Shown here piece after piece: positions 3,484-17,381 of a DNA stretch of 26,279 nucleotides. The DNA is from a virus, in IMG/VR virus record IMGVR_UViG_3300030102_005480, positions 1 to 26,279 of that record; one strand, 5' to 3'. The notes beneath the pieces are model-generated. The model was not told the origin of the DNA, did not search any database, and saw only the letters and a list, made by a program, of their open reading frames with translations. The translations under genes were made by a program, and so were the position numbers. Within the stretch, counting starts at the first letter, position 1, and every line of letters starts with the position of its first letter.

Positions 3484-3855
3484 CTACTTATAAGTGTTAG
3501 GGGCTTTTTTGATACCAGTATTTATAGTACCAGTTGATTTAATCATACCACCTTGGTTGTACATAGCAACCTTACCACCTTTAGTGTAAGCTTTCTTTTT
3601 CATACCACCCTTGGCATAACCTTTTTTCTTCATACCACCCTTGGCATAACCTTTCTTTTTCATCATGCCGCCTTTGTTTGCACCTTTAGCTGCAGACTTC
3701 ATAGGTTCAGTTTTATTACCATCTCCATCAAGATCTAAAAAATCTGGTTTTGGTCCTCCACCTTTGGCGTAGCCTTTCTTCTTCATGCCGCCCATTGCAT
3801 AACCTTTCTTTTTCATGCCACCCATTGCGTAGCCTTTTTTCTTCATCTTTTTCAT
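3484..3855 (-). CDS. MKKKGYAxGG repeat protein with degenerate EF-hand-like insert
   Basis: A 123-residue protein made of six ten-residue repeats, consensus MKKKGYA(M/K)GG. Three lie at residues 4-33 and three at 65-94. They are separated by PKPDFLDLDGDGNKTEPM, which resembles a calcium loop, though the last position is Met instead of Glu. The C-terminus (GGMIKSTGTINTGIKKAPN, residues 102-120) closely resembles the end of the unrelated basic protein at 7720-8379. It overlaps the next gene by TAATG. The Gly/Lys/Tyr repeats suggest a disordered nucleic-acid-binding or condensing protein. Function unknown. Confidence 0.8.
   Translation of the reverse strand: MKKMKKKGYAMGGMKKKGYAMGGMKKKGYAKGGGPKPDFLDLDGDGNKTEPMKSAAKGANKGGMMKKKGYAKGGMKKKGYAKGGMKKKAYTKGGKVAMYNQGGMIKSTGTINTGIKKAPNTYK
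3574..3663 (-). repeat. Three 30-bp coding repeats (MKKKGYAKGG), second block
   Basis: Three in-frame 30-base units encoding MKKKGYAKGG, MKKKGYAKGG and MKKKAYTKGG. The first two are nearly identical at DNA level. They match the block at 3757-3846, so the gene probably grew by unit duplication and could slip or recombine. Confidence 0.9.
3757..3846 (-). repeat. Three 30-bp coding repeats (MKKKGYAxGG), first block
   Basis: Three in-frame 30-base units encoding MKKKGYAMGG, MKKKGYAMGG and MKKKGYAKGG near the start of the repeat protein. The third-codon positions vary (ggc/ggt, tac/tat), so selection appears to hold the peptide repeat and not just the DNA. Confidence 0.9.
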
Positions 3856-9050: not shown

Positions 9051-9350
9051 TTAATGCTGTGTTTTAGGTTCTTCCACTGTTTCTTCATACTTATCCTCCC
9101 ACTCTCTTTTTCTCTCTGGGTCTAGAACGTCAAATCTGGACAACATACCCTCAAGGTACATTGACCTTTCTATTCTATCCAGAGATTCCCAGTTTCCTGT
9201 GTGTTCAAAGTAGGCTCTACGAGCATAAAAGACATCTGATCGGGGAATATGTACCCTTCTCAGTTTCTTTTCGTCTTGGTTAGCTAGTGCGTTGTAGAAC
9301 TCTTCTAGTACTGAGTCTGACTCAAAGTACTTTATTCTGTTTTTACTCAT
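9051..9350 (-). CDS. Hypothetical protein, first gene of the leftward block
   Basis: A 99-residue charged helical protein (SDSVLEEFYNALANQDEKKL, then VHIPRSDVFYARRAYFEHTG). It has no membrane segment or known motif. It is the first leftward gene after the divergent control region. The ATG at 9350 has no ribosome binding site and lies only about 14 bases from a probable -10 box, so translation may be nearly leaderless. Function unknown. Confidence 0.75.
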   Translation of the reverse strand: MSKNRIKYFESDSVLEEFYNALANQDEKKLRRVHIPRSDVFYARRAYFEHTGNWESLDRIERSMYLEGMLSRFDVLDPERKREWEDKYEETVEEPKTQH

Positions 9351-9363
9351 TTGGATTTCGGTA

Positions 9364-9391
9364 GTTGTACTTAAAGTAATACCATTGTCAA
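9364..9391 (-). promoter_or_regulatory. Probable leftward promoter with an operator-like dyad in its spacer
   Basis: On the minus strand a perfect -35 TTGACA (9391-9386) is followed after 16 bases by TACAAC (9369-9364). The dyad TACTT-T-AAGTA (9378-9368) occupies the end of the spacer and touches the -10. It would start transcription about seven bases before the ATG at 9350. A regulator bound to the dyad would block or remodel this promoter. Confidence 0.55.
9368..9378. repeat. TACTTnAAGTA dyad, copy 1
   Basis: TACTT-A-AAGTA, inverted repeat with a single central base, inside the leftward promoter. It belongs to a family with copies at 9454, 9524 and 16124. Confidence 0.75.
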
Positions 9392-9453
9392 TATTATCTT
9401 TTATTTATTTTCAATAAATGGACAACAAAAGAAGAATATGAGGTACTATAAGT

Positions 9454-9468
9454 ATTACTTTAAGTAAT
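9454..9468. repeat. ATTACTTnAAGTAAT dyad, copy 2
   Basis: Perfect seven-base arms ATTACTT-T-AAGTAAT. It is preceded by a TACTATAAG stretch that could serve as a -10 in the rightward direction. Confidence 0.8.
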
Positions 9469-9523
9469 TACTGTTAGTATTCTAATATTAGTAATAAATA
9501 TAAGAATAAAAATAAAAGTATTA

Positions 9524-9538
9524 AATACTTTAAGTATT
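9524..9538. repeat. AATACTTnAAGTATT dyad, copy 3
   Basis: Perfect seven-base arms AATACTT-T-AAGTATT. Its right flank (ACTGTTAGTAT) repeats that of copy 2, so about 20 bases are nearly duplicated. A weaker relative, ACTTCAAGTATA, follows at 9568-9579. Confidence 0.8.
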
Positions 9539-9737
9539 ACTGTTAGTATATACTACTAGTTATACTGACTTCAAGTATAAAACAACAAGTAATTACCCCC
9601 GATGACACTATGTCACACCCATATAGTGTAAGCATATATTCTTGTATCTTGTTATTAATAGTACAAATCCCCTGTCATCTAACAAGATATACTTATTCTT
9701 CCTCTTATATAGTTTCATACCGTTAGTTATAACTAAA

Positions 9738-9747
9738 TGTGATCACA
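9738..9747. repeat. TGTGATCACA palindrome, copy 1
   Basis: Ten-base perfect palindrome, repeated at 9995-10004 and 10070-10079 in the same non-coding region. The half site TGTGA equals that of CRP/FNR-type sites, but the usual six-base spacer is absent. Confidence 0.6.
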
Positions 9748-9830
9748 ACTCAAGTGTAAACCACTTGATTAACAATGTGGTTAACAGTCGAAAAATACCC
9801 CTCTCTGTCATTGGGTGTATATACGTAACG

Positions 9831-9861
9831 GTATACGGGGGGGTGGCCCATGCCCCTATAC
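9831..9861. repeat. G/C-rich imperfect hairpin
   Basis: GTATACGGGG pairs with CCCCTATAC, leaving one bulged C and a loop of about 12 bases that itself contains GGGTGGCCCA. It stands out in an otherwise very AT-rich region. It has no following T-run on either strand, so it is not a standard terminator. Confidence 0.5.
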
Positions 9862-9885
9862 CTTTATTTTCTTTTATTAAGCAAA

Positions 9886-9903
9886 TAGTTTAATGTTAAA
9901 CTA
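9886..9903. repeat. TAGTTTAA-n2-TTAAACTA dyad, copy 1
   Basis: Perfect eight-base arms around TG. It is the first of a spaced array that continues at 9908 (one mismatch), 9940 (perfect) and about 9973 (degenerate). Confidence 0.8.
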
Positions 9904-9907
9904 CTTT

Positions 9908-9925
9908 TAGTTTAATCTTAAAGTA
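9908..9925. repeat. TAGTTTAA-n2-TTAAAGTA dyad, copy 2
   Basis: Same element as at 9886, with one mismatched pair near the end of the right arm (G for C) and spacer TC. Confidence 0.65.
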
Positions 9926-9939
9926 TCACTGCTCAAAAA

Positions 9940-9957
9940 TAGTTTAACTTTAAACTA
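9940..9957. repeat. TAGTTTAA-n2-TTAAACTA dyad, copy 3
   Basis: Perfect eight-base arms around CT. Centre-to-centre distances in the array are 22, 32 and about 33 bases, close to two and three turns of the helix. Confidence 0.8.
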
Positions 9958-9992
9958 ATTCTTTGCGAATAACGTTTAGTATTAAACTTTTA

Positions 9993-10006
9993 TTTGTGAT
10001 CACAAA
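9993..10006. repeat. TTTGTGATCACAAA palindrome (copy 2 of TGTGATCACA)
   Basis: Fourteen-base perfect palindrome containing the TGTGATCACA core. It lies just beyond the TAGTTTAA array. Confidence 0.65.
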
Positions 10007-10069
10007 ACAAAAGGTTTTATGTATACCCCCCAGTATTAATTGGTCACTCAAAGTATACCCCTAGATTTT

Positions 10070-10079
10070 TGTGATCACA
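10070..10079. repeat. TGTGATCACA palindrome, copy 3
   Basis: Third copy of the ten-base palindrome, 75 bases after copy 2. It is preceded by TATACCCC and a T-rich run. Confidence 0.6.
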
Positions 10080-10328
10080 GTATTACCACCAGTTAGAACA
10101 GAAATAGAACAAAGCAAGAAATAGCTTTCACACTTAATATAACGCTCACTGAGTAGCTTTTATCTTTTTGTATACTGTTGTTCATAAAATAAGCTTTCCC
10201 CTAATTCTTGATATTTGTTGCATACTTACAACACAAAATAAAATAGTGGTTTTCTGGGTATTGTGCTTACCAGTTAAACAGCTAACTTGGTTACACAATT
10301 TATATATATTTAAAAAGGATTAATTAAA

Positions 10329-10538
10329 ATGAAATACGAAACCGACATAGTAGATAGCAAAGTAAATAGCTTCATGATTAACTTTTTAAAAAGTGGTGGT
10401 TTTAACATGAAAACTAATAAAGATTGTATTGAATTTTATACACCTAAAAAGAATAGATTAATCTTTAAGTCTCAAAAGTGGGATACACACTACAAGGTTA
10501 CTTTTGCAGAAAAGTTATTTTTAAAACAAACTGTATAA
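10329..10538 (+). CDS. Hypothetical protein, first rightward gene
   Basis: A 69-residue basic protein (KVNSFMINFLKSGGFNMKTN, later FYTPKKNRLIFKSQKWD). An AAAAAGGA ribosome binding site stands about eight bases before the ATG. It is AT-rich (about 27% GC in the first 60-base line), like the GP88 gene that follows 17 bases later. It has a beta-rich look and no recognised family. Confidence 0.65.
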   Translation: MKYETDIVDSKVNSFMINFLKSGGFNMKTNKDCIEFYTPKKNRLIFKSQKWDTHYKVTFAEKLFLKQTV

Positions 10539-10555
10539 TAGAGGGATTAATAAAA

Positions 10556-11509
10556 ATGAATATGATAGTTAATCAAAATGATTTTAACACTTATAAAGAT
10601 CAATCCAGACAAGCTTTAAAAGCTATGAAAGAGCATTGCAACACTGATACATTCATTAATGATTGTAAAAGAATTGCATACGAAAAAATAGAGCAAGCTT
10701 TAGACAACAATGGTCAATTGATATGGTCAAAGCTTCCTAAACTAATTGGACAAAATACAAAGATTAGTAAAGATATTGCTAATAGTGACAAAGATATTGA
10801 AATATTTGGTTTATCACTAGCACCCCATTTTATTAGTGGGTTCAATACTTGTAATGGTTTAAGCATGGGGTGTGCTCAAGCTTGCCTAATGTTTACTGGT
10901 ATGGGGCAAAAATTCATGATTGCAACAGATGGTGAGCACAAAGTAGCAATTGCCAGAATTATCAGGACTATTCTTTGGTTTAAATATCGTGATCAATTCA
11001 AAGCTAAATTGTTACGTGAGATAGAATTAAAACAAAAATTACTAGCTAAGAAAAATATTAGCATGGCATTTCGTCCTAATGTTTTCAGCGAAGTAAAATT
11101 TGAAAAGTTATTTCCAGAATTATTTGAGTTATGCAAAAGCTTAAACATTCAAGTTTACGATTATGTAAAAGATATAAATAGAATTGTAGAAAATCCATAT
11201 AAAGATTTTTATAGTATGACGTTCAGTCTATCCGAAAACAATTCTTTGTTTATTCCTACGGCTCTAAAACATGGTTCAAACATAGCTATTGTTACTGATA
11301 TACCTACAAACAAGGCTAAAGATAAAAAGAGCTATCTATATAGCGTTCCAGATACAATTACTGTTGATGGTATAACTCTTAATACTGTTGATGGTGATAG
11401 CCACGATGCAAGGTTTTTAGACAATAAAAAGAATTGCTTTGTTGTCCTACGTGGCAAGGGTCAAGAGATAAGAAAAGATACAACTAACTTCATGAGAAAG
11501 GTATTCTAA
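10556..11509 (+). CDS. GP88-family phage protein
   Basis: A 317-residue member of the GP88 family, named after mycobacteriophage gene product 88. Recognisable blocks are FNTCNGLSMGCAQACLMFTG (Cys 99, 106 and 110), the VYDYVK segment, the MTFSLSENN segment, and a C-terminal DGDSHDARFLD then VVLRGKG. The three clustered Cys could bind a metal or iron-sulfur cluster, but the family has no established activity. I chose the ATG at 10556 with GAGGG upstream; an in-frame ATG at 10478 would overlap the previous gene. Several 60-base lines are about 23% GC, against about 43% for the replication genes, which suggests separate acquisition. Confidence 0.85.
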   Translation: MNMIVNQNDFNTYKDQSRQALKAMKEHCNTDTFINDCKRIAYEKIEQALDNNGQLIWSKLPKLIGQNTKISKDIANSDKDIEIFGLSLAPHFISGFNTCNGLSMGCAQACLMFTGMGQKFMIATDGEHKVAIARIIRTILWFKYRDQFKAKLLREIELKQKLLAKKNISMAFRPNVFSEVKFEKLFPELFELCKSLNIQVYDYVKDINRIVENPYKDFYSMTFSLSENNSLFIPTALKHGSNIAIVTDIPTNKAKDKKSYLYSVPDTITVDGITLNTVDGDSHDARFLDNKKNCFVVLRGKGQEIRKDTTNFMRKVF

Positions 11510-11510
11510 A

Positions 11511-11603
11511 ATGTTTTTAACTTGGATCATAGGTACAATAGCAATAACGGCTATTCTGGGAATACTAGCGTGGATCATAACTTATTTAATAATGGAGGTA
11601 TAA
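11511..11603 (+). CDS. 30-residue transmembrane microprotein
   Basis: Encodes a single hydrophobic helix (MFLTWIIGTIAITAILGILA, then WIITYLIMEV). The ATG follows the GP88 stop by one base and its own stop touches the next ATG, so it fits the operon spacing exactly. There is no strong ribosome binding site, so translation would be coupled to GP88. Role unknown. Confidence 0.5.
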   Translation: MFLTWIIGTIAITAILGILAWIITYLIMEV

Positions 11604-11777
11604 ATGGATCAACTAATTTATCATAAGAAAAAACTCTATCAATTGAGCGATTACATGAACGCTCTGGAAGTCTCAGCAAGTAGCATGTTCAACAGTGAAC
11701 AACAAAGATATGAAGCAGTAAAAAGAATATGCGAGGTAAACAATATTTTAGAAGGGATATTGAATGATGAAGAATAA
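11604..11777 (+). CDS. Small helical hypothetical protein
   Basis: A 57-residue polar helical protein (KKLYQLSDYMNALEVSASSM) with a strong GGAGG ribosome binding site five bases before the ATG. It overlaps the next gene by 14 bases. No family recognised. Confidence 0.65.
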   Translation: MDQLIYHKKKLYQLSDYMNALEVSASSMFNSEQQRYEAVKRICEVNNILEGILNDEE

Positions 11778-11976
11778 TTTATTGAGATTAAATAACGCTA
11801 CTGGTGCAGCATTGGAAGTGCTTGAAGAATTAGCAGAGCTAACAACTAAGCTAGAGCACATTCAAGATTTAGCAATTGAAGTAAAAGGTTCGGGAGCTTT
11901 ACCAGTAGAGGCAATAGAAGAATTAGAAGGCATAGCCAATGCTTGTGGAGTACTGATAGCAAGGGGAAAAGAATAA
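11764..11976 (+). CDS. Small coiled-coil hypothetical protein
   Basis: A 70-residue acidic, Leu/Glu/Ala-rich helical protein (ALEVLEELAELTTKLEHIQD). It is likely a helical hairpin or coiled-coil dimer. AGGGA precedes the ATG pair at 11764. It joins the next gene at TAATG. Confidence 0.65.
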   Translation: MMKNNLLRLNNATGAALEVLEELAELTTKLEHIQDLAIEVKGSGALPVEAIEELEGIANACGVLIARGKE

Positions 11977-12209
11977 TGAAATATATGACAACTCTTAACG
12001 TCTGGGACAACAGCATAAAGAAAGCTATTGAGACGGGTCAAATAAAGCTACAGCGAGGGCAATGGCTACGCTGTGGGACTAAGGGCAAACGCTGTAGATA
12101 TGTAGGTTTAACTAGCGGCAAATCTATATGGGTTACGCACTGGCAAGGATCGCCACAAAAAACAAACACAAAATTTTTAAACGCTGTTGAAGCATACAAT
12201 GGAAGGTAA
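11976..12209 (+). CDS. Small basic hypothetical protein
   Basis: A 77-residue basic protein with a compact beta look (GQIKLQRGQWLRCGTKGKRC, then YVGLTSGKSIWVTHWQGSPQ). The ATG at 11976 overlaps the previous stop by one base, with AGGGG upstream. The GQWxRCG and IWVxHWQG pieces resemble short phage or plasmid proteins of unknown role. Confidence 0.68.
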   Translation: MKYMTTLNVWDNSIKKAIETGQIKLQRGQWLRCGTKGKRCRYVGLTSGKSIWVTHWQGSPQKTNTKFLNAVEAYNGR

Positions 12210-12213
12210 GATA

Positions 12214-12423
12214 ATGACTAAGAAAATATTAAAACACTGGGCGCTATTCTACAAAAATGGGGAGCGACATTTTATAAACGCACCTACTAGGGCAGAGTTA
12301 GACAGTGCTGTATTCGGTGGGGCATATGCGCCAAGGTTTGACAGTGTGACTTACTATGTCGAATATGAGCGTGACATAAAAGACACACAATATAACCAAG
12401 TTCACGAAGTGTATTTAAAGTAA
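12214..12423 (+). CDS. Small hypothetical protein
   Basis: A 69-residue protein (MTKKILKHWALFYKNGERHF), with a probable beta-alpha-beta pattern. The start is the ATG at 12214, placed correctly behind GGAAGG. An upstream in-frame ATG at 12187 would run into the previous gene. Confidence 0.65.
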   Translation: MTKKILKHWALFYKNGERHFINAPTRAELDSAVFGGAYAPRFDSVTYYVEYERDIKDTQYNQVHEVYLK

Positions 12424-12475
12424 TAATTCTATCTGATATTGAAGGGATAGAACAAACAAAAAGGGATAATAAAAA

Positions 12476-12664
12476 ATGACAGTAACACTTAACCAAATAC
12501 TAGCTATGGAAAATGTCCTAGCTACTCGTAAAATACCTAGCGACATTGCAGCAATGGCAAAAGCCAAACGCTACAGTGAAAGCAAACAAAAAGTAATTAC
12601 GCTAGGTGATCAACCATTACACTATGTATTAAGAATATTAGCAAAAGAAGGGTTAGACAAATGA
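12476..12664 (+). CDS. Small helical hypothetical protein
   Basis: A 62-residue protein (MTVTLNQILAMENVLATRKI), mostly alpha-helical and basic. AAAAGGGA precedes the start. It ends in an ATGA overlap with the next gene. No family recognised. Confidence 0.62.
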   Translation: MTVTLNQILAMENVLATRKIPSDIAAMAKAKRYSESKQKVITLGDQPLHYVLRILAKEGLDK

Positions 12665-13032
12665 GCTACATAGACACACTAAAAACAATCAACACGACTG
12701 AATTGAAAACACAAATGCTTGACGCTGCTACTGATGCGACAGACACCTACATTAAGGATGTACTGAAGGGTGAGGATGCCTTTGCCTGTGGGTTCGCTTG
12801 GGTAAATATTTATCCTAGGTTCAAGGGCAATACCAAGGATGGTAAAGCAGAACGCAAAGTAATAAAAGAACTAGGGTTCGAGCTAGACTACACTGGTAAA
12901 AGGTTCAGCCTATGGAATCCTAGCAAGTCATACTTCCAGAACATAGACTGTAAGGAAGCAGGTGCTAGAGCAGCAGCCAAAGTTCTGGAGAGTGTGGGCT
13001 TTGATGCTTTTGCAAACAGTAGGCTAGACTAG
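12661..13032 (+). CDS. Conserved hypothetical phage protein
   Basis: A 123-residue globular protein. The centre, FACGFAWVNIYPRFKGNTKD, followed by KVIKELGFELDYTGKRF, looks well conserved and enzyme-like, but I cannot name it. It is coupled to its neighbours by ATGA at the start and TAGTG at the end. Confidence 0.72.
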   Translation: MSYIDTLKTINTTELKTQMLDAATDATDTYIKDVLKGEDAFACGFAWVNIYPRFKGNTKDGKAERKVIKELGFELDYTGKRFSLWNPSKSYFQNIDCKEAGARAAAKVLESVGFDAFANSRLD

Positions 13033-13181
13033 TGGAGTACGTTATTCACATCAGCAAAAAGGGTGGTGAGTGTTTCGCTTACCACTCTACAAAAGATAAG
13101 TCAGAATTAGATAGGCTTGTTGGCAAGTATCTAAGGATGAAGGGTATAACAATTGAAGTAAAGAAAAGGTTTTTAACATGA
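13032..13181 (+). CDS. Small hypothetical protein (GTG start)
   Basis: A 49-residue basic protein (VEYVIHISKKGGECFAYHST and after) with a GTG start overlapping the previous stop by one base (TAGTG). It ends in an ATGA overlap with the next gene. The tight fit on both sides supports it. Confidence 0.6.
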   Translation: MEYVIHISKKGGECFAYHSTKDKSELDRLVGKYLRMKGITIEVKKRFLT

Positions 13182-13591
13182 CAAATTTTACAAGAGAACA
13201 ACTAAAAACATTACGTGCTGAGATAAACTCATTACTACTAACACATAACTTTGAGGAAACTTGTGATTTAAAAATAAAAACTCTTGTTGATAGCTGCACC
13301 TACAGTGGTGGCGAGGCTACATTCAAAGTAAAAGTATTACTTGATGGGGCAGAGACTAAAGAAGAAAAGGATCTAAAGAAAATGGCTATCCTAGCTAGAT
13401 TAGATACATCTAAGATACACGAATACATAGACCATAGGTCAGTCAGGTATCGTATGCAGCTAGTAGGCTACAAAACTAAAGCAAGGAAAATGCCTTGGAT
13501 TGTAAAGGATCTTTTGTCTATGTCTGGGAATGAGTACAAGCTCACTGATGCACAAGCTAGACAGTGGTTCGAGTATGAGGTGCAGCCATGA
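13178..13591 (+). CDS. Hypothetical protein
   Basis: A 137-residue basic protein with N-terminal helices (TREQLKTLRAEINSLLLTHN), a beta-rich middle (TYSGGEATFKVKVLLDGAET) and a C-terminal helical part. AAAGG lies upstream of the ATG. It is coupled on both sides by ATGA overlaps. The layout of a helix plus a strand-rich domain does not point to a known family. Confidence 0.7.
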   Translation: MTNFTREQLKTLRAEINSLLLTHNFEETCDLKIKTLVDSCTYSGGEATFKVKVLLDGAETKEEKDLKKMAILARLDTSKIHEYIDHRSVRYRMQLVGYKTKARKMPWIVKDLLSMSGNEYKLTDAQARQWFEYEVQP

Positions 13592-13764
13592 GATACAAAG
13601 ACATTACAGTAGAAGCAGATGATCTAGAGTGTGACGAAACAGACACAATCTATAAAGCAATTAAAAATCATATCTTGGATGTTGGGATTGCAACACCTAA
13701 AACATTAACAGGATTTAACTGGAGACTAGACGTTAGAATGAGGATGGATAACTATGACACCTAG
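13588..13764 (+). CDS. Small hypothetical protein
   Basis: A 58-residue acidic protein (MRYKDITVEADDLECDETDT). It begins by ATGA overlap with the preceding gene and overlaps the next one by 11 bases. It fills an otherwise empty 160-base gap. Confidence 0.6.
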   Translation: MRYKDITVEADDLECDETDTIYKAIKNHILDVGIATPKTLTGFNWRLDVRMRMDNYDT

Positions 13765-13954
13765 AATACAAGAGATGTACAAAGACATATACTACGCAGA
13801 CTATGACGATGTAGAGATAGATCAACTAATTGTAGGACTGCTAGGTAGTAGAATGAACTTAGCAAGTTGGCACAATGTCTCAGAGACAGTGAGCAGCTAC
13901 AAGCTAGACGATCAGATAGAACTAGACTTTGAACCAGAGGATAACTTGAGATGA
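13754..13954 (+). CDS. Small acidic hypothetical protein
   Basis: A 66-residue strongly acidic protein (YKDIYYADYDDVEIDQLIVG) with an acidic tail FEPEDNLR. GAGGA stands upstream. It belongs to a run of acidic, Tyr-rich products reaching to 15535. Confidence 0.62.
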   Translation: MTPRIQEMYKDIYYADYDDVEIDQLIVGLLGSRMNLASWHNVSETVSSYKLDDQIELDFEPEDNLR

Positions 13955-14280
13955 TACTATACAAGTCAAGTAAAGGACAGTGGGTTGGTACTCAGCGTGA
14001 CGCTCAGAGATACTTCCCTAAAGACTGGAAGCAAGTCGATGTGCCAGTGTCTAAGGTTTACCTTATCGAGTTCTTAAATGAGAACAAGGTAGGGGCTACA
14101 CAGACTGAGCAACAACAGCCAGTGGTGGTAGCACCTGACCCAGAACAAATAGACCCAGAAGCTTATGGTTGGGTGTCCTGGGCATACGAGACGCTCAAGC
14201 GTGGAGATAAACATGAAGCACTCAAAATGCTAGAGCGAGGATTAAGTAAACAGAAGGAACTACAAAATGAAACTAATTAA
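13951..14280 (+). CDS. Hypothetical protein
   Basis: A 109-residue protein with a small N-terminal domain (MILYKSSKGQWVGTQRDAQR), a Gln/Pro-rich linker near 55-70 and a C-terminal helical hairpin (AYETLKRGDKHEALKMLERG) resembling one tetratricopeptide-type repeat. It is coupled to the previous gene by ATGA. Confidence 0.68.
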   Translation: MILYKSSKGQWVGTQRDAQRYFPKDWKQVDVPVSKVYLIEFLNENKVGATQTEQQQPVVVAPDPEQIDPEAYGWVSWAYETLKRGDKHEALKMLERGLSKQKELQNETN

Positions 14281-14470
14281 AGTCAGAGTAAATAAAACAA
14301 TAGAGTATGAAGTGTCTGTGCCTGTGCAGGAAGATCACAGATATGAACACATAGCAGACTACTTACAAACTATAGACTGGAATAAAGAGATAAAAGTATC
14401 ACCACAAAACTATAAACACATAGCAGAATACTATGACTGGTTAGACTGGGAGGCAGTACAAAATGGATAG
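14267..14470 (+). CDS. Small acidic Trp/Tyr-rich protein, paralogue A
   Basis: A 67-residue acidic protein. It opens with a beta strand pair (MKLIKVRVNKTIEYEVSVPV) and ends in NYKHIAEYYDWLDWEAV. The protein at 14794-15018 has the same plan: MRIRVKAEETVYLEYFVDVP at the start and YDWEEV near the end. The two are probably duplicates separated by one gene. The dense acidic and aromatic surface resembles DNA-mimic proteins, but this is only compositional. Confidence 0.65.
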   Translation: MKLIKVRVNKTIEYEVSVPVQEDHRYEHIADYLQTIDWNKEIKVSPQNYKHIAEYYDWLDWEAVQNG

Positions 14471-14792
14471 TAATGAAATAATGAAAGCAATAGAAGGAGC
14501 TAAGACTGTGAAAAACAAAGAAGTAAAATTAAAGACAAAGCTAACTCGTAATGAGGTGGCAGACCTACTCGAAGTATACCGAATCATGGATGATATATGT
14601 GATGATTTTAAAGAGATGTTTGATACTGATCTTAGTAAGGTACGTAAGTTAGAAGAGATGTCATACACATTGAAGAACATGTTTGATTTCAGACCACGTA
14701 TAGGCGAGGACGGTAGCCCTAATCACTGGCGTCCATACGTTCTTCCTGATGATGAAGAAGCATGGTTTCATAAACCAGAGAAGGATGAATAA
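14463..14792 (+). CDS. Hypothetical protein
   Basis: A 109-residue charged helical protein (KLKTKLTRNEVADLLEVYRI) with an acidic C-terminus (YVLPDDEEAWFHKPEKDE). It overlaps the previous gene by 8 bases and sits between two paralogous acidic proteins. Confidence 0.68.
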   Translation: MDSNEIMKAIEGAKTVKNKEVKLKTKLTRNEVADLLEVYRIMDDICDDFKEMFDTDLSKVRKLEEMSYTLKNMFDFRPRIGEDGSPNHWRPYVLPDDEEAWFHKPEKDE

Positions 14793-14793
14793 A

Positions 14794-15018
14794 ATGAGGA
14801 TACGAGTAAAAGCAGAAGAGACTGTCTATCTGGAATACTTTGTTGATGTACCAGAAGAGATAGTAGAACAAAGTAAAGAGAGAATATCTAAGACTTACTT
14901 AAAGAATGCTATCCATAACTGGATAGAGGAAAATGAATCGGAGTTTAACTACCAAGACTATGACAGTGTTAAAGAGTGGTATGATTGGGAAGAGGTAGGA
15001 GATGAGTGGAACAATTGA
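14794..15018 (+). CDS. Small acidic Trp/Tyr-rich protein, paralogue B
   Basis: A 74-residue protein with about 20 acidic and 8 basic residues. It starts MRIRVKAEETVYLEYFVDVP and ends in an aromatic/acidic stretch (SVKEWYDWEEVGDEWNN). I chose the ATG at 14794, with AAGGA eight bases upstream, two bases after the previous stop. It is paralogous in layout to 14267-14470. Confidence 0.66.
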   Translation: MRIRVKAEETVYLEYFVDVPEEIVEQSKERISKTYLKNAIHNWIEENESEFNYQDYDSVKEWYDWEEVGDEWNN

Positions 15019-15056
15019 AAACTAGTTTTGGAATTGAAATGAAAGAGGAGAAAAGT

Positions 15057-15275
15057 ATGGCAGATAAAACATACGAAAAAATATTTGCAAAACTATCAGG
15101 ACATTTTCTGACTCAGGAATTACCTGATAACTGGAGAGACTTTGATGAGGACTACCTAGAAGAATGGTTTACTGAGTGTGCACTGGATACCTACCAGTAT
15201 TGGGAGTGGGATGAAGTGTATGATATGATTGACAGAATAGTATTTGATTTAATTAAGTTAGGAGTAAAACTATGA
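15057..15275 (+). CDS. Small very acidic hypothetical protein
   Basis: A 72-residue protein with roughly 18 acidic and 7 basic residues and several Trp (DNWRDFDEDYLEEWFTECAL). The start is the ATG at 15057 behind a textbook GAGGAG site; upstream GTG 15006 and ATG 15039 are in frame but worse placed. It ends by ATGA overlap with the next gene. Confidence 0.65.
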   Translation: MADKTYEKIFAKLSGHFLTQELPDNWRDFDEDYLEEWFTECALDTYQYWEWDEVYDMIDRIVFDLIKLGVKL

Positions 15276-15535
15276 ACACCAGAATGTTTAACTACAAGAA
15301 CCAGTCAGTGATGTTTATAAACTGTAGTCTTGATCACTGCTACAACACTGCTGATTACATGATAAAGAGAGAAAAAAATAACGGATACTGGAAGCCTAGA
15401 CTTTATGATGATTACGATCAGGATCATCCATCAGTCGAGAGCATCTATGATTGGGTTGAAATAAAGGACAGTGTTACTGACCTAGTACCTATCACTGCTG
15501 AAGAAGTGGAGAAAGCATACAATGAGCTACGATAA
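15272..15535 (+). CDS. Hypothetical protein
   Basis: An 87-residue acidic, Tyr-rich protein (MNTRMFNYKNQSVMFINCSL) with a YDWVEI piece near residue 63. That echoes the YDW motifs of the two acidic paralogues upstream. It is coupled by ATGA at its start and overlaps the next gene by 14 bases. Confidence 0.65.
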   Translation: MNTRMFNYKNQSVMFINCSLDHCYNTADYMIKREKNNGYWKPRLYDDYDQDHPSVESIYDWVEIKDSVTDLVPITAEEVEKAYNELR

Positions 15536-15929
15536 ATGGATCATGATTGAGGGTGGTACAAAGAGCCAACAGAAGTATGCCATAAGTATGATCATGTTCT
15601 TTAAGAATAAGTTCGACATAGATCCATACATAGAGGTATGCTTTCGAGGACAGAGTCACAGTATAGGTGGATGCATCCAGATGGAAGAGGGTGAGTATCG
15701 GATAGACTTAGACAGATCTATGAGGCTCAGAGATATGCTTACGACACTGGCTCACGAACTGGTGCACGTCAAACAGTACGAGTGTGGAGAGCTAACACAG
15801 AACAGTGAGGACAACATACCATACTGGGATAAACCCTCAGAGATAGAAGCCTATGGGCGTGAGGTAGGACTGTTTATTACTTGGGCAGAGGAAAATAATT
15901 TAGGCAACAAAACCTGGGCACAAAGGTAG
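15522..15929 (+). CDS. Putative HExxH zinc metallopeptidase
   Basis: A 135-residue protein with a zinc-binding HELVH motif (His78, Glu79, His82) in LTTLAHELVHVKQY. A likely third ligand is Glu109 in PSEIEAYGRE, 27 residues on. This is the gluzincin layout, seen also in SprT-like and ImmA-like proteins. It has no signal peptide, so it would act in the cytoplasm and could cleave a host or phage regulator. The gene ends the first rightward cluster, directly before a new control region. Confidence 0.72.
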   Translation: MSYDKWIMIEGGTKSQQKYAISMIMFFKNKFDIDPYIEVCFRGQSHSIGGCIQMEEGEYRIDLDRSMRLRDMLTTLAHELVHVKQYECGELTQNSEDNIPYWDKPSEIEAYGREVGLFITWAEENNLGNKTWAQR

Positions 15930-15950
15930 AAGTAGTAGGAGGTACAATCT

Positions 15951-16019
15951 TTGACACCATATATTGTGTTGGTATGTTGTATAGCTTTTTACATTTGGGC
16001 TTTCTATATGTTGAGATAG
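15951..16019 (+). CDS. 22-residue hydrophobic microprotein (TTG start)
   Basis: A TTG at 15951 lies seven bases after a perfect AGGAGG and opens a 22-residue frame (TPYIVLVCCIAFYIWAFYML plus Arg), a single membrane helix. A consensus ribosome binding site with no other start nearby is hard to explain otherwise. The size makes it tentative. Confidence 0.4.
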   Translation: MTPYIVLVCCIAFYIWAFYMLR

Positions 16020-16119
16020 GTGAGACAACTTGCCCCACTTGAAATAAAAACAACAGTTGCCAACTAATAACTAAAGGTTATACCTAAAGTATACTAATAT
16101 TTATTATTCTTATATAAGA

Positions 16120-16136
16120 TATAATACTTTAAGTAT
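16120..16136 (+). promoter_or_regulatory. Probable promoter and TACTTTAAGTA operator-like site
   Basis: A perfect -10 TATAAT (16120-16125) runs directly into the dyad ATACTT-T-AAGTAT (16124-16136), placed where the transcript would begin. The first gene starts 25 bases later. No clear -35 is visible, the upstream sequence being A/T only. The dyad is the same as those in the 9368-9538 region. The 230-base gap also holds a related half site at 16084-16095. Confidence 0.5.
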
Positions 16137-16160
16137 AACTAAAAGAAAGGGACTAACAGT

Positions 16161-16397
16161 ATGAATAATGATGAAGATGATACAGAAGAGGTGATGTTTT
16201 TATCTGTTGATGAAATCAATAATCTTCTGGATAGACTTAAAAAAAGAGATAAAGATATTGTTGAATTAATTATTGAACAGAACAACACATTACTTGATGC
16301 TGTTGTTGACCTTCAATGGTTCATGAAAGAAAAGGGACTTACCTCTAAACAGTTCAAGGCTTGGATGGAGGAAAAAGATTTGAGGACATATCACTGA
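16161..16397 (+). CDS. Small acidic helical protein
   Basis: A 78-residue acidic protein, mainly one long coiled-coil-like helix (EINNLLDRLKKRDKDIVELI). GAAAGGGA precedes the start. It is the first gene behind the 16120 promoter and ends in a TGATG junction with the next gene. Confidence 0.68.
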   Translation: MNNDEDDTEEVMFLSVDEINNLLDRLKKRDKDIVELIIEQNNTLLDAVVDLQWFMKEKGLTSKQFKAWMEEKDLRTYH

Positions 16398-16770: not shown

Positions 16771-17162
16771 TCGCTGAGATGCTTACATGCATTGCGCTCA
16801 ACGTGTATTACGAGGCACGTAGTGAGCCATTGGAAAGTCAGATAGGTGTGGCTCATGTTGTCCTCAATCGTGTAGCCAGTGACAAGTTTCCTGATGATGC
16901 ATGTTCTGTGGTATATCAAGGTCTGGAGAAAGGTATAGGTAGGTGTCAATTTAGTTGGTACTGTGACGGTAAGTCAGATAAACCAAAGGATGAAATAGCA
17001 TGGGCATTTTCAAAATTGGTTGCACACAACGTAGTGCGTGGATACATGAAGGACAACACTGATGGGTCTGTCTACTATCATGCTAATTATGTTAATCCAT
17101 TTTGGAATAAACACTACAAACACACTGTAACTTTAGGATCACACATATTTTATAAGGAGTAG
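16767..17162 (+). CDS. SleB-type cell wall hydrolase
   Basis: A 131-residue Hydrolase_2 family enzyme related to spore-cortex lytic protein SleB, acting on the glycan strand of peptidoglycan. It shows the full family pattern: CIALNVYYEARSE with the catalytic Glu near residue 16, GVAHVVLNRV, a CQFSWYCDG block, the YYHANYVNPFW block and a final GSHIFY. The likely start is GTG at 16767, overlapping the previous stop as GTGA; ATG at 16779 is possible. No signal peptide. This is a second wall hydrolase besides the M15 endolysin, on the opposite transcript, so it may serve DNA entry or early wall remodelling. Confidence 0.88.
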   Translation: MIAEMLTCIALNVYYEARSEPLESQIGVAHVVLNRVASDKFPDDACSVVYQGLEKGIGRCQFSWYCDGKSDKPKDEIAWAFSKLVAHNVVRGYMKDNTDGSVYYHANYVNPFWNKHYKHTVTLGSHIFYKE

Positions 17163-17165
17163 ATA

Positions 17166-17381
17166 ATGCAACCAAAAGAAGTACCCAGTCATGTTCGTAT
17201 TCGATATGAACCCACCTTAAAACAGAAGGGAAGGAAGTGTAAACTGTACGGTAAAACATTTCTCAACATGGCAGAGGCAGCACGATACTGGGGTATCACT
17301 TATGCTTGGGCAACAGAACAAATAAACAAGGGATGGAATCAAGATGGCTTTCCCCCCAAAGCAAGGAAGGATTATAAATGA
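17166..17381 (+). CDS. Small basic protein, possible helix-turn-helix
   Basis: A 71-residue basic protein. LYGKTFLNMAEAARYWGITY followed by AWATEQINKGW looks like a helix-turn-helix of the kind fused to phage homing nucleases (NUMOD-like), but without a nuclease. AAGGAG precedes the ATG. It overlaps the next gene by ATGA. Confidence 0.65.
   Translation: MQPKEVPSHVRIRYEPTLKQKGRKCKLYGKTFLNMAEAARYWGITYAWATEQINKGWNQDGFPPKARKDYK

Follow-up and report, generated by a model that had tools for sequence, protein, structure and literature searches.

The window, a 26,279-bp IMG/VR contig, is a fragment of a CRP-9-type roseophage. Phages of this type are defined by Cobavirus-type replication genes together with HMO-2011-type packaging and morphogenesis genes (PMC8528129). 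The window combines a Cobavirus-type replication module, whose primase-helicase, DNA polymerase and RNR match those of CRP-9 and the cobaviruses, with HMO-2011-type packaging/structural genes, among them terminase genes of 74% nucleotide identity to CRP-13; the HMO-2011-type morphogenesis genes are located past the contig end. HMO-2011-type and related roseophages have been reported among the dominant marine phages (PMC9038755). Promoters are not mentioned in the main text of that report or of the paper describing CRP-9 and CRP-13 (PMC8528129).

Two arms diverge from a common non-coding region. On the leftward arm lie genes for lysis and packaging, followed by the structural genes in full genomes. 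Its first gene (9051-9350, minus strand, 99 aa) is present in all HMO-2011-type and CRP-9-type phages examined. The rightward arm consists of small early genes, a second non-coding gap and the replication genes, and the first gene of this second rightward transcript (16161-16397, plus strand) encodes an acidic protein of 78 aa with a predicted long helix and a short helix. The replication transcript encodes an endolysin-like protein (16779-17162), in addition to the lysis region on the leftward arm. The leftward arm also encodes a predicted basic protein made of KKKGYAMGG/KKKGYAKGG repeats (3484-3855), and 15522-15929 contains a HELVH motif, its CRP-9 relative giving a weak SprT-like match.

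The dyad and its conservation

Exact TACTTNAAGTA occurs four times in the 26,279 bases (9368-9378, 9456-9466, 9526-9536, 16125-16135); dinucleotide shuffles of the window give a mean of 0.13. An earlier note on this DNA had described these dyads at 9368, 9454, 9524 and 16124. The four copies are real and the first position is exact, the other three being off by 1-2 bases. All four are non-coding as stated there, lying either between the start codon of 9051-9350 and the gene at 10329 or within 15929-16161. The distance of 18-25 bases given for the outer two is about right, the next start codon being 17 nt from the 9368 dyad and 25 nt from the 16125 dyad.

The literal TACTTnAAGTA had to be rejected as the conserved unit, since neither CRP-9 nor CRP-13 contains it. 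What is conserved is the looser TACT-N3-AGTA, which is often arranged in tandem with a spacing of 12-13 bp. The window has eight exact copies of TACTNNNAGTA, seven in the two control regions and one in a gene (14566). In CRP-9 all seven copies and in CRP-13 all six fall in the same two non-coding regions; shuffled genomes contain 1-2.6 copies each. Across 12 near-full-length genomes the control regions, 7.3 kb in all, contain 61 copies and the remaining ~660 kb 14, a density ~390x higher in the control regions. The middle part of this enrichment is biased upward because the middle region was located through its own motif matches, in the interval 0.8-5.5 kb from the primase-helicase gene; the leftward region had been fixed beforehand. 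TACTN3AGTA lies upstream of the first leftward gene in 71 of the 80 IMG/VR relatives of that gene. A motif-blind census of all gapped 4+4 palindromes was made in 39 dereplicated leftward regions (<25% of 12-mers in common) against composition-matched controls, and TACTN3AGTA ranked first (119 copies vs 3.4 expected, 36/39 regions). Upstream of the second rightward transcript 37 copies are found vs 1.1 expected, and 18 of 23 dereplicated regions have at least one. Enrichment at promoters together with conservation among diverged genomes is what would be expected of operators, and the sites show both. Near-confinement to non-coding promoter regions and conservation upstream of the same genes, on which the earlier note had staked its proposal, hold in diverged relatives for the looser TACTN3AGTA only.

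Chance palindromes in AT-rich intergenic DNA would be the simplest explanation, and the regions are indeed AT-rich, with a composition that also favours other weak palindromes. The shuffles, the motif-blind census (119 vs 3.4) and the genome-wide density (14 copies in ~660 kb elsewhere) refute this explanation, and we give it practically no weight.

The integrase-bearing HMO-2011-type phages CRP-2, CRP-207 and CRP-603 have 0-1 copy each and none in the two control regions. Cobavirus CRP-5 has two exact copies in the control region, one of them in register with a TTGACA-17-TATACT promoter sequence, cobavirus CRP-4 a looser TACTTAAAGGATA array, and cobavirus ICBM2 no exact TACTN3AGTA copy. A scan of IMG/VR for two tandem dyads returned at least 117 loci; 52 of the 117 listed are CRP-9-type. 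In the marine phage contigs L332 (8887-8977), L234 (4209-4305) and L310 (964-1060), pairs of TACTN3AGTA separated by 57-74 bp lie close to the starts of structural genes; these contigs have no protein family or gene in common with the CRP-9 type. Scanning one genome per GTDB species gave single matches spread over unrelated taxa, among the matches listed. An Rfam search gave no match.

Putative operator clusters and predicted promoters

On the leftward arm of the window the dyads form two clusters and a separate proximal site. The upstream cluster (9526-9548) consists of the tandem dyads TACTTTAAGTA at 9526 and TACTGTTAGTA at 9538, the latter an imperfect copy in register, with degenerate copies TACTACTAGTTA at 9551 and GACTTCAAGTA at 9567. 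It overlaps the predicted main leftward promoter (9545-9574, minus strand; TTGAAG 9574-9569, 18 bp, TATACT 9550-9545), the -10 of which overlaps the 9538 dyad; the geometry is alike in relatives. The downstream cluster (9444-9479) lies in the presumed leader and comprises three tandem dyads, the perfect TACTTTAAGTA at 9456 flanked in register by the imperfect TACTATAAGTA at 9444 and TACTGTTAGTA at 9469. Nearest to the gene, a possible proximal promoter (9364-9391, minus strand) is formed by TTGACA (9391-9386), 16 bp and a weak -10, TACAAC (9369-9364). This TTGACA had been recorded before and is where it was said to be; a similar TTGACA-16-TACAAC is present in L013 and CRP-13. The perfect dyad TACTTAAAGTA (9368-9378) lies in the spacer and overlaps the -10, the first two bases of TACAAC being the last two of the dyad. 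Close relatives (L108-L114, L011) have it too, at position -28 relative to the gene start. If the proximal promoter were used, the leftward mRNA would be near-leaderless (9348-9369), starting ~7 nt before the ATG without a Shine-Dalgarno sequence.

In the second control region a perfect TATAAT (16120-16125) precedes the perfect dyad TACTTTAAGTA (16125-16135), as had been noted, and the two have the last T in common; this dyad is kept in L014 and L017-L020. The TATAAT is not accompanied by a good -35 at 16-18 bp. Further upstream, TTGCCA (16057-16062), 16 bp and TATACC (16079-16084) make a possible rightward middle promoter (16057-16084, plus strand), and by script TTGCCA-16-TATACC was also found in the relative L062. 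The imperfect dyad TACCTAAAGTA (16081-16091) overlaps its -10.

Among the 39 leftward regions, 35 have a sigma-70-like promoter toward the leftward operon, several of them a perfect TTGACA-17-TATAAT; promoter-like sites in the opposite direction occur in 8 and are scattered. In 27 of the 35 promoter-bearing regions a dyad begins 2-9 bp after the start of the -10, a position typical of repressors. The two cases at offset 2 are not independent of the motif because the dyad supplies part of the -10; in the 13 cases at offset 5, dyad and -10 have a single base in common. The spacing of neighbouring dyads peaks at 12 bp, and TAT is the commonest dyad centre (17/118). A second cluster follows the upstream one at 45-75 bp downstream. 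The middle arm has the same two-cluster layout, and its promoters are weak or non-canonical, a simple scan giving a candidate in 10 of 23 regions. The repressor geometry is therefore demonstrated for the leftward arm only.

The arrays might instead bind an activator, a phage middle or late factor that recruits host RNA polymerase, with the dyads at the start site acting as a feedback shut-off. Such a factor would suit the weak middle promoters and the TATAAT at 16120-16125, which lacks a good -35 and has an imperfect dyad centred ~46 bp upstream of the expected start, and restriction-modification C proteins are known to activate as well as repress from tandem dyads (PMC4824078). On the leftward arm, however, many relatives have promoters near or at consensus, and the dyads there cover the -10 and the sequence after it instead of standing ahead of the -35. 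As an account of the arrays as a whole we regard activation as unlikely; at the middle promoter it is possible.

Other dyad families in the region

The TACTTnAAGTA/TACTN3AGTA dyad is not the sole operator-like element of the region. Two further dyad families, which the earlier note had missed, lie on the early side: GTTTAAnnTTAAAC and TGTGATCACA. The second dyad family, TAGTTTAAnnTTAAACTA, occupies the early side of this intergenic region (window 9886-9957, L022, L024); GTTTANNNNTAAAC is present in 86 copies vs 0.15 expected and in 32 of 43 dereplicated relatives. The third dyad, TGTGATCACA, is found at 9738, 9995 and 10070 of the window and also in L024, L028 and L030. It reaches 45 copies vs ~0 expected in 22 of the 43 dereplicated relatives, occurs in CRP-2 (one copy) and CRP-603 (four), and is absent from CRP-9. 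Nine phages lacking the TACTN3AGTA array were compared in the leftward control region (L164, L167, L169, L170, L174, L184, CRP-2, CRP-207, CRP-603), and 7 of the 9 have AACATTAATGTT-like dyads in front of that structural operon.

Search for the regulator

The statement of the earlier note that no regulator gene is evident still holds after domain searches. Pfam and/or PHROGs searches of ~40 small proteins from the window and CRP-9 gave no regulator domain and no recognised DNA-binding domain. Among the searched proteins there was no HTH_3/XRE match, and no small HTH controller of the C type was found next to the operator. CRP-9 has a lone annotated cytosine methyltransferase.

Four candidates were rejected. 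The product of 9051-9350, a mostly helical model with no convincing fold match, is also present in array-less phages. That of 16161-16397, modelled as a long helix and acidic, is missing in 4 of 12 complete genomes, and 12661-13032 is missing in 9 of 24 early regions. Neither of the two structural models pointed to a regulator. Neither CRP-9 nor CRP-13 encodes the HTH-like 17166-17381, which does occur in L170, a phage without the array. The middle of this patchily distributed 71-aa protein, AEAARYWGITYAWATEQINKG, resembles a helix-turn-helix by eye, and Pfam gave no match. CRP-9 gp35, a small protein at the end of the rightward arm, is a candidate; it is found in 11 of 12 genomes, with partly similar proteins in array-less phages.

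In presence profiling no small protein family fitted the array pattern cleanly. Nothing was both universal and array-specific except replication proteins, the endolysin and artefacts of overlapping frames; DNA polymerase, primase-helicase and SSB are present in 12/12 array-bearing genomes and in 0/4 without an array. This association with the Cobavirus-type replication module, an indirect correlation, and the AT-rich DNA between the two clusters would agree with the arrays being replication origins or initiator (iteron) sites, their closeness to promoters being secondary. That each genome has two separate sites, each just upstream of an operon, that on the leftward arm the dyads stand in constant register with promoter-like sequence that faces one way only, and that cobavirus ICBM2 has no exact copy all speak against an origin, which we consider improbable.

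A host transcription factor or nucleoid protein could also bind the arrays and be relieved in infection, for example through titration by copied phage DNA. It would account both for the failure to find a regulator gene in the phage and for the silence of strong promoters at the start, and the similar paired arrays of unrelated marine phage contigs (L332; L234, L310) would be in keeping with it. CRP-2, however, infects the same host strain (FZCC0023) as CRP-9 and CRP-13 and has no array, which argues against a host regulator and for a phage-encoded partner. Moreover, array-less phages as a group tend to the AACATTAATGTT dyad in the same place, and no Rhodobacteraceae are among the GTDB matches listed. 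We hold a host factor to be rather unlikely; the partner is probably encoded by the phage.

Discussion

We propose that the TACTN3AGTA dyads are operators of one putative regulator acting on both arms, probably phage-encoded and probably a repressor, and assign this reading a probability of roughly 0.6. The element is present on both arms, near-confined to non-coding promoter regions and conserved in diverged relatives, so that a single regulator, as the earlier note had suggested, appears from sequence to be the best reading. An operator that covers the -10 and the start site usually represses, and a second cluster suits looping or roadblock; a repressor on both operons is therefore favoured. 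We infer all three of the following: binding by a single protein, repression over activation, and timing.

Homodimers would bind each 11-bp dyad, neighbouring dimers lying side by side at 12-13 bp. On both arms an upstream operator cluster would sit at the promoter and a second one roughly 45-75 bp downstream. Since the leftward upstream cluster overlaps the -10 and the start site, binding there should block host sigma-70 RNA polymerase, and the downstream cluster would add looping or roadblock. The regulator would hold back the structural operon and also, through the same kind of dyad, the second rightward (replication) operon; release would follow a change in its level or in operator copy number. 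A strong structural promoter available early would presumably need the repressor from the start of infection, which counts against repression.

More tentatively, and with some doubt, CRP-9-type roseophages may have a three-operator control region read by new-family regulators without a recognised DNA-binding domain, TACTN3AGTA serving the structural and replication operons and GTTTAAnnTTAAAC and TGTGATCACA the early side. TACTN3AGTA and the replication module would travel together; HMO-2011-type phages that have the other module would tend to AACATTAATGTT before the same structural operon, which would have been rewired at module exchange. The apparent change of operator along with the replication module would then also show how such an exchange can rewire a phage structural operon. 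The dyads supply a defined DNA bait, the promoter predictions are fixed, and two isolates grow on a single cultured host, so that control of the programme can be tested directly.

Several known systems resemble this arrangement in part. The sites of P2 Ogr-type late activators lie ~55 bp upstream of the start. As there, one short dyad is common to several phage operons; unlike there, the leftward dyads described here cover the -10 and the sequence beyond it. Ribbon-helix-helix operators (Arc, MetJ) are short dyads in tandem at close spacing, which fits side-by-side dimers as the present dyads do, although no ribbon-helix-helix protein was found here and the spacing is 12-13 bp. In gal and lac, paired operators repress by looping. 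The likeness to paired-operator repression (gal, lac, C.Kpn2I) is that one cluster covers the start site and a second lies within the transcribed leader; in our case the same element stands at two operons of one phage, and looping is a proposal. For C.Kpn2I, repression by roadblock has been described (PMC6237814).

The C-boxes of C.PvuII-type restriction-modification controller (C) proteins have the sequence GACT-tat-AGTC (PMC4824078). Both elements have an ACT-N3-AGT core and occur at least twice, at a promoter or close to one, and the TAT centre is the commonest here too. In the phages the outer bases are T/A instead of G/C, the tandem spacing is 12-13 bp, a second cluster lies 45-75 bp away, and phage operons would be controlled rather than a restriction-modification system. 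Tandem ACT-N3-AGT dyads at a promoter are thus found for the core, with differing flanking bases. Given a core like that of C-boxes and no C protein found, the phage regulator may work like a C protein without being one.
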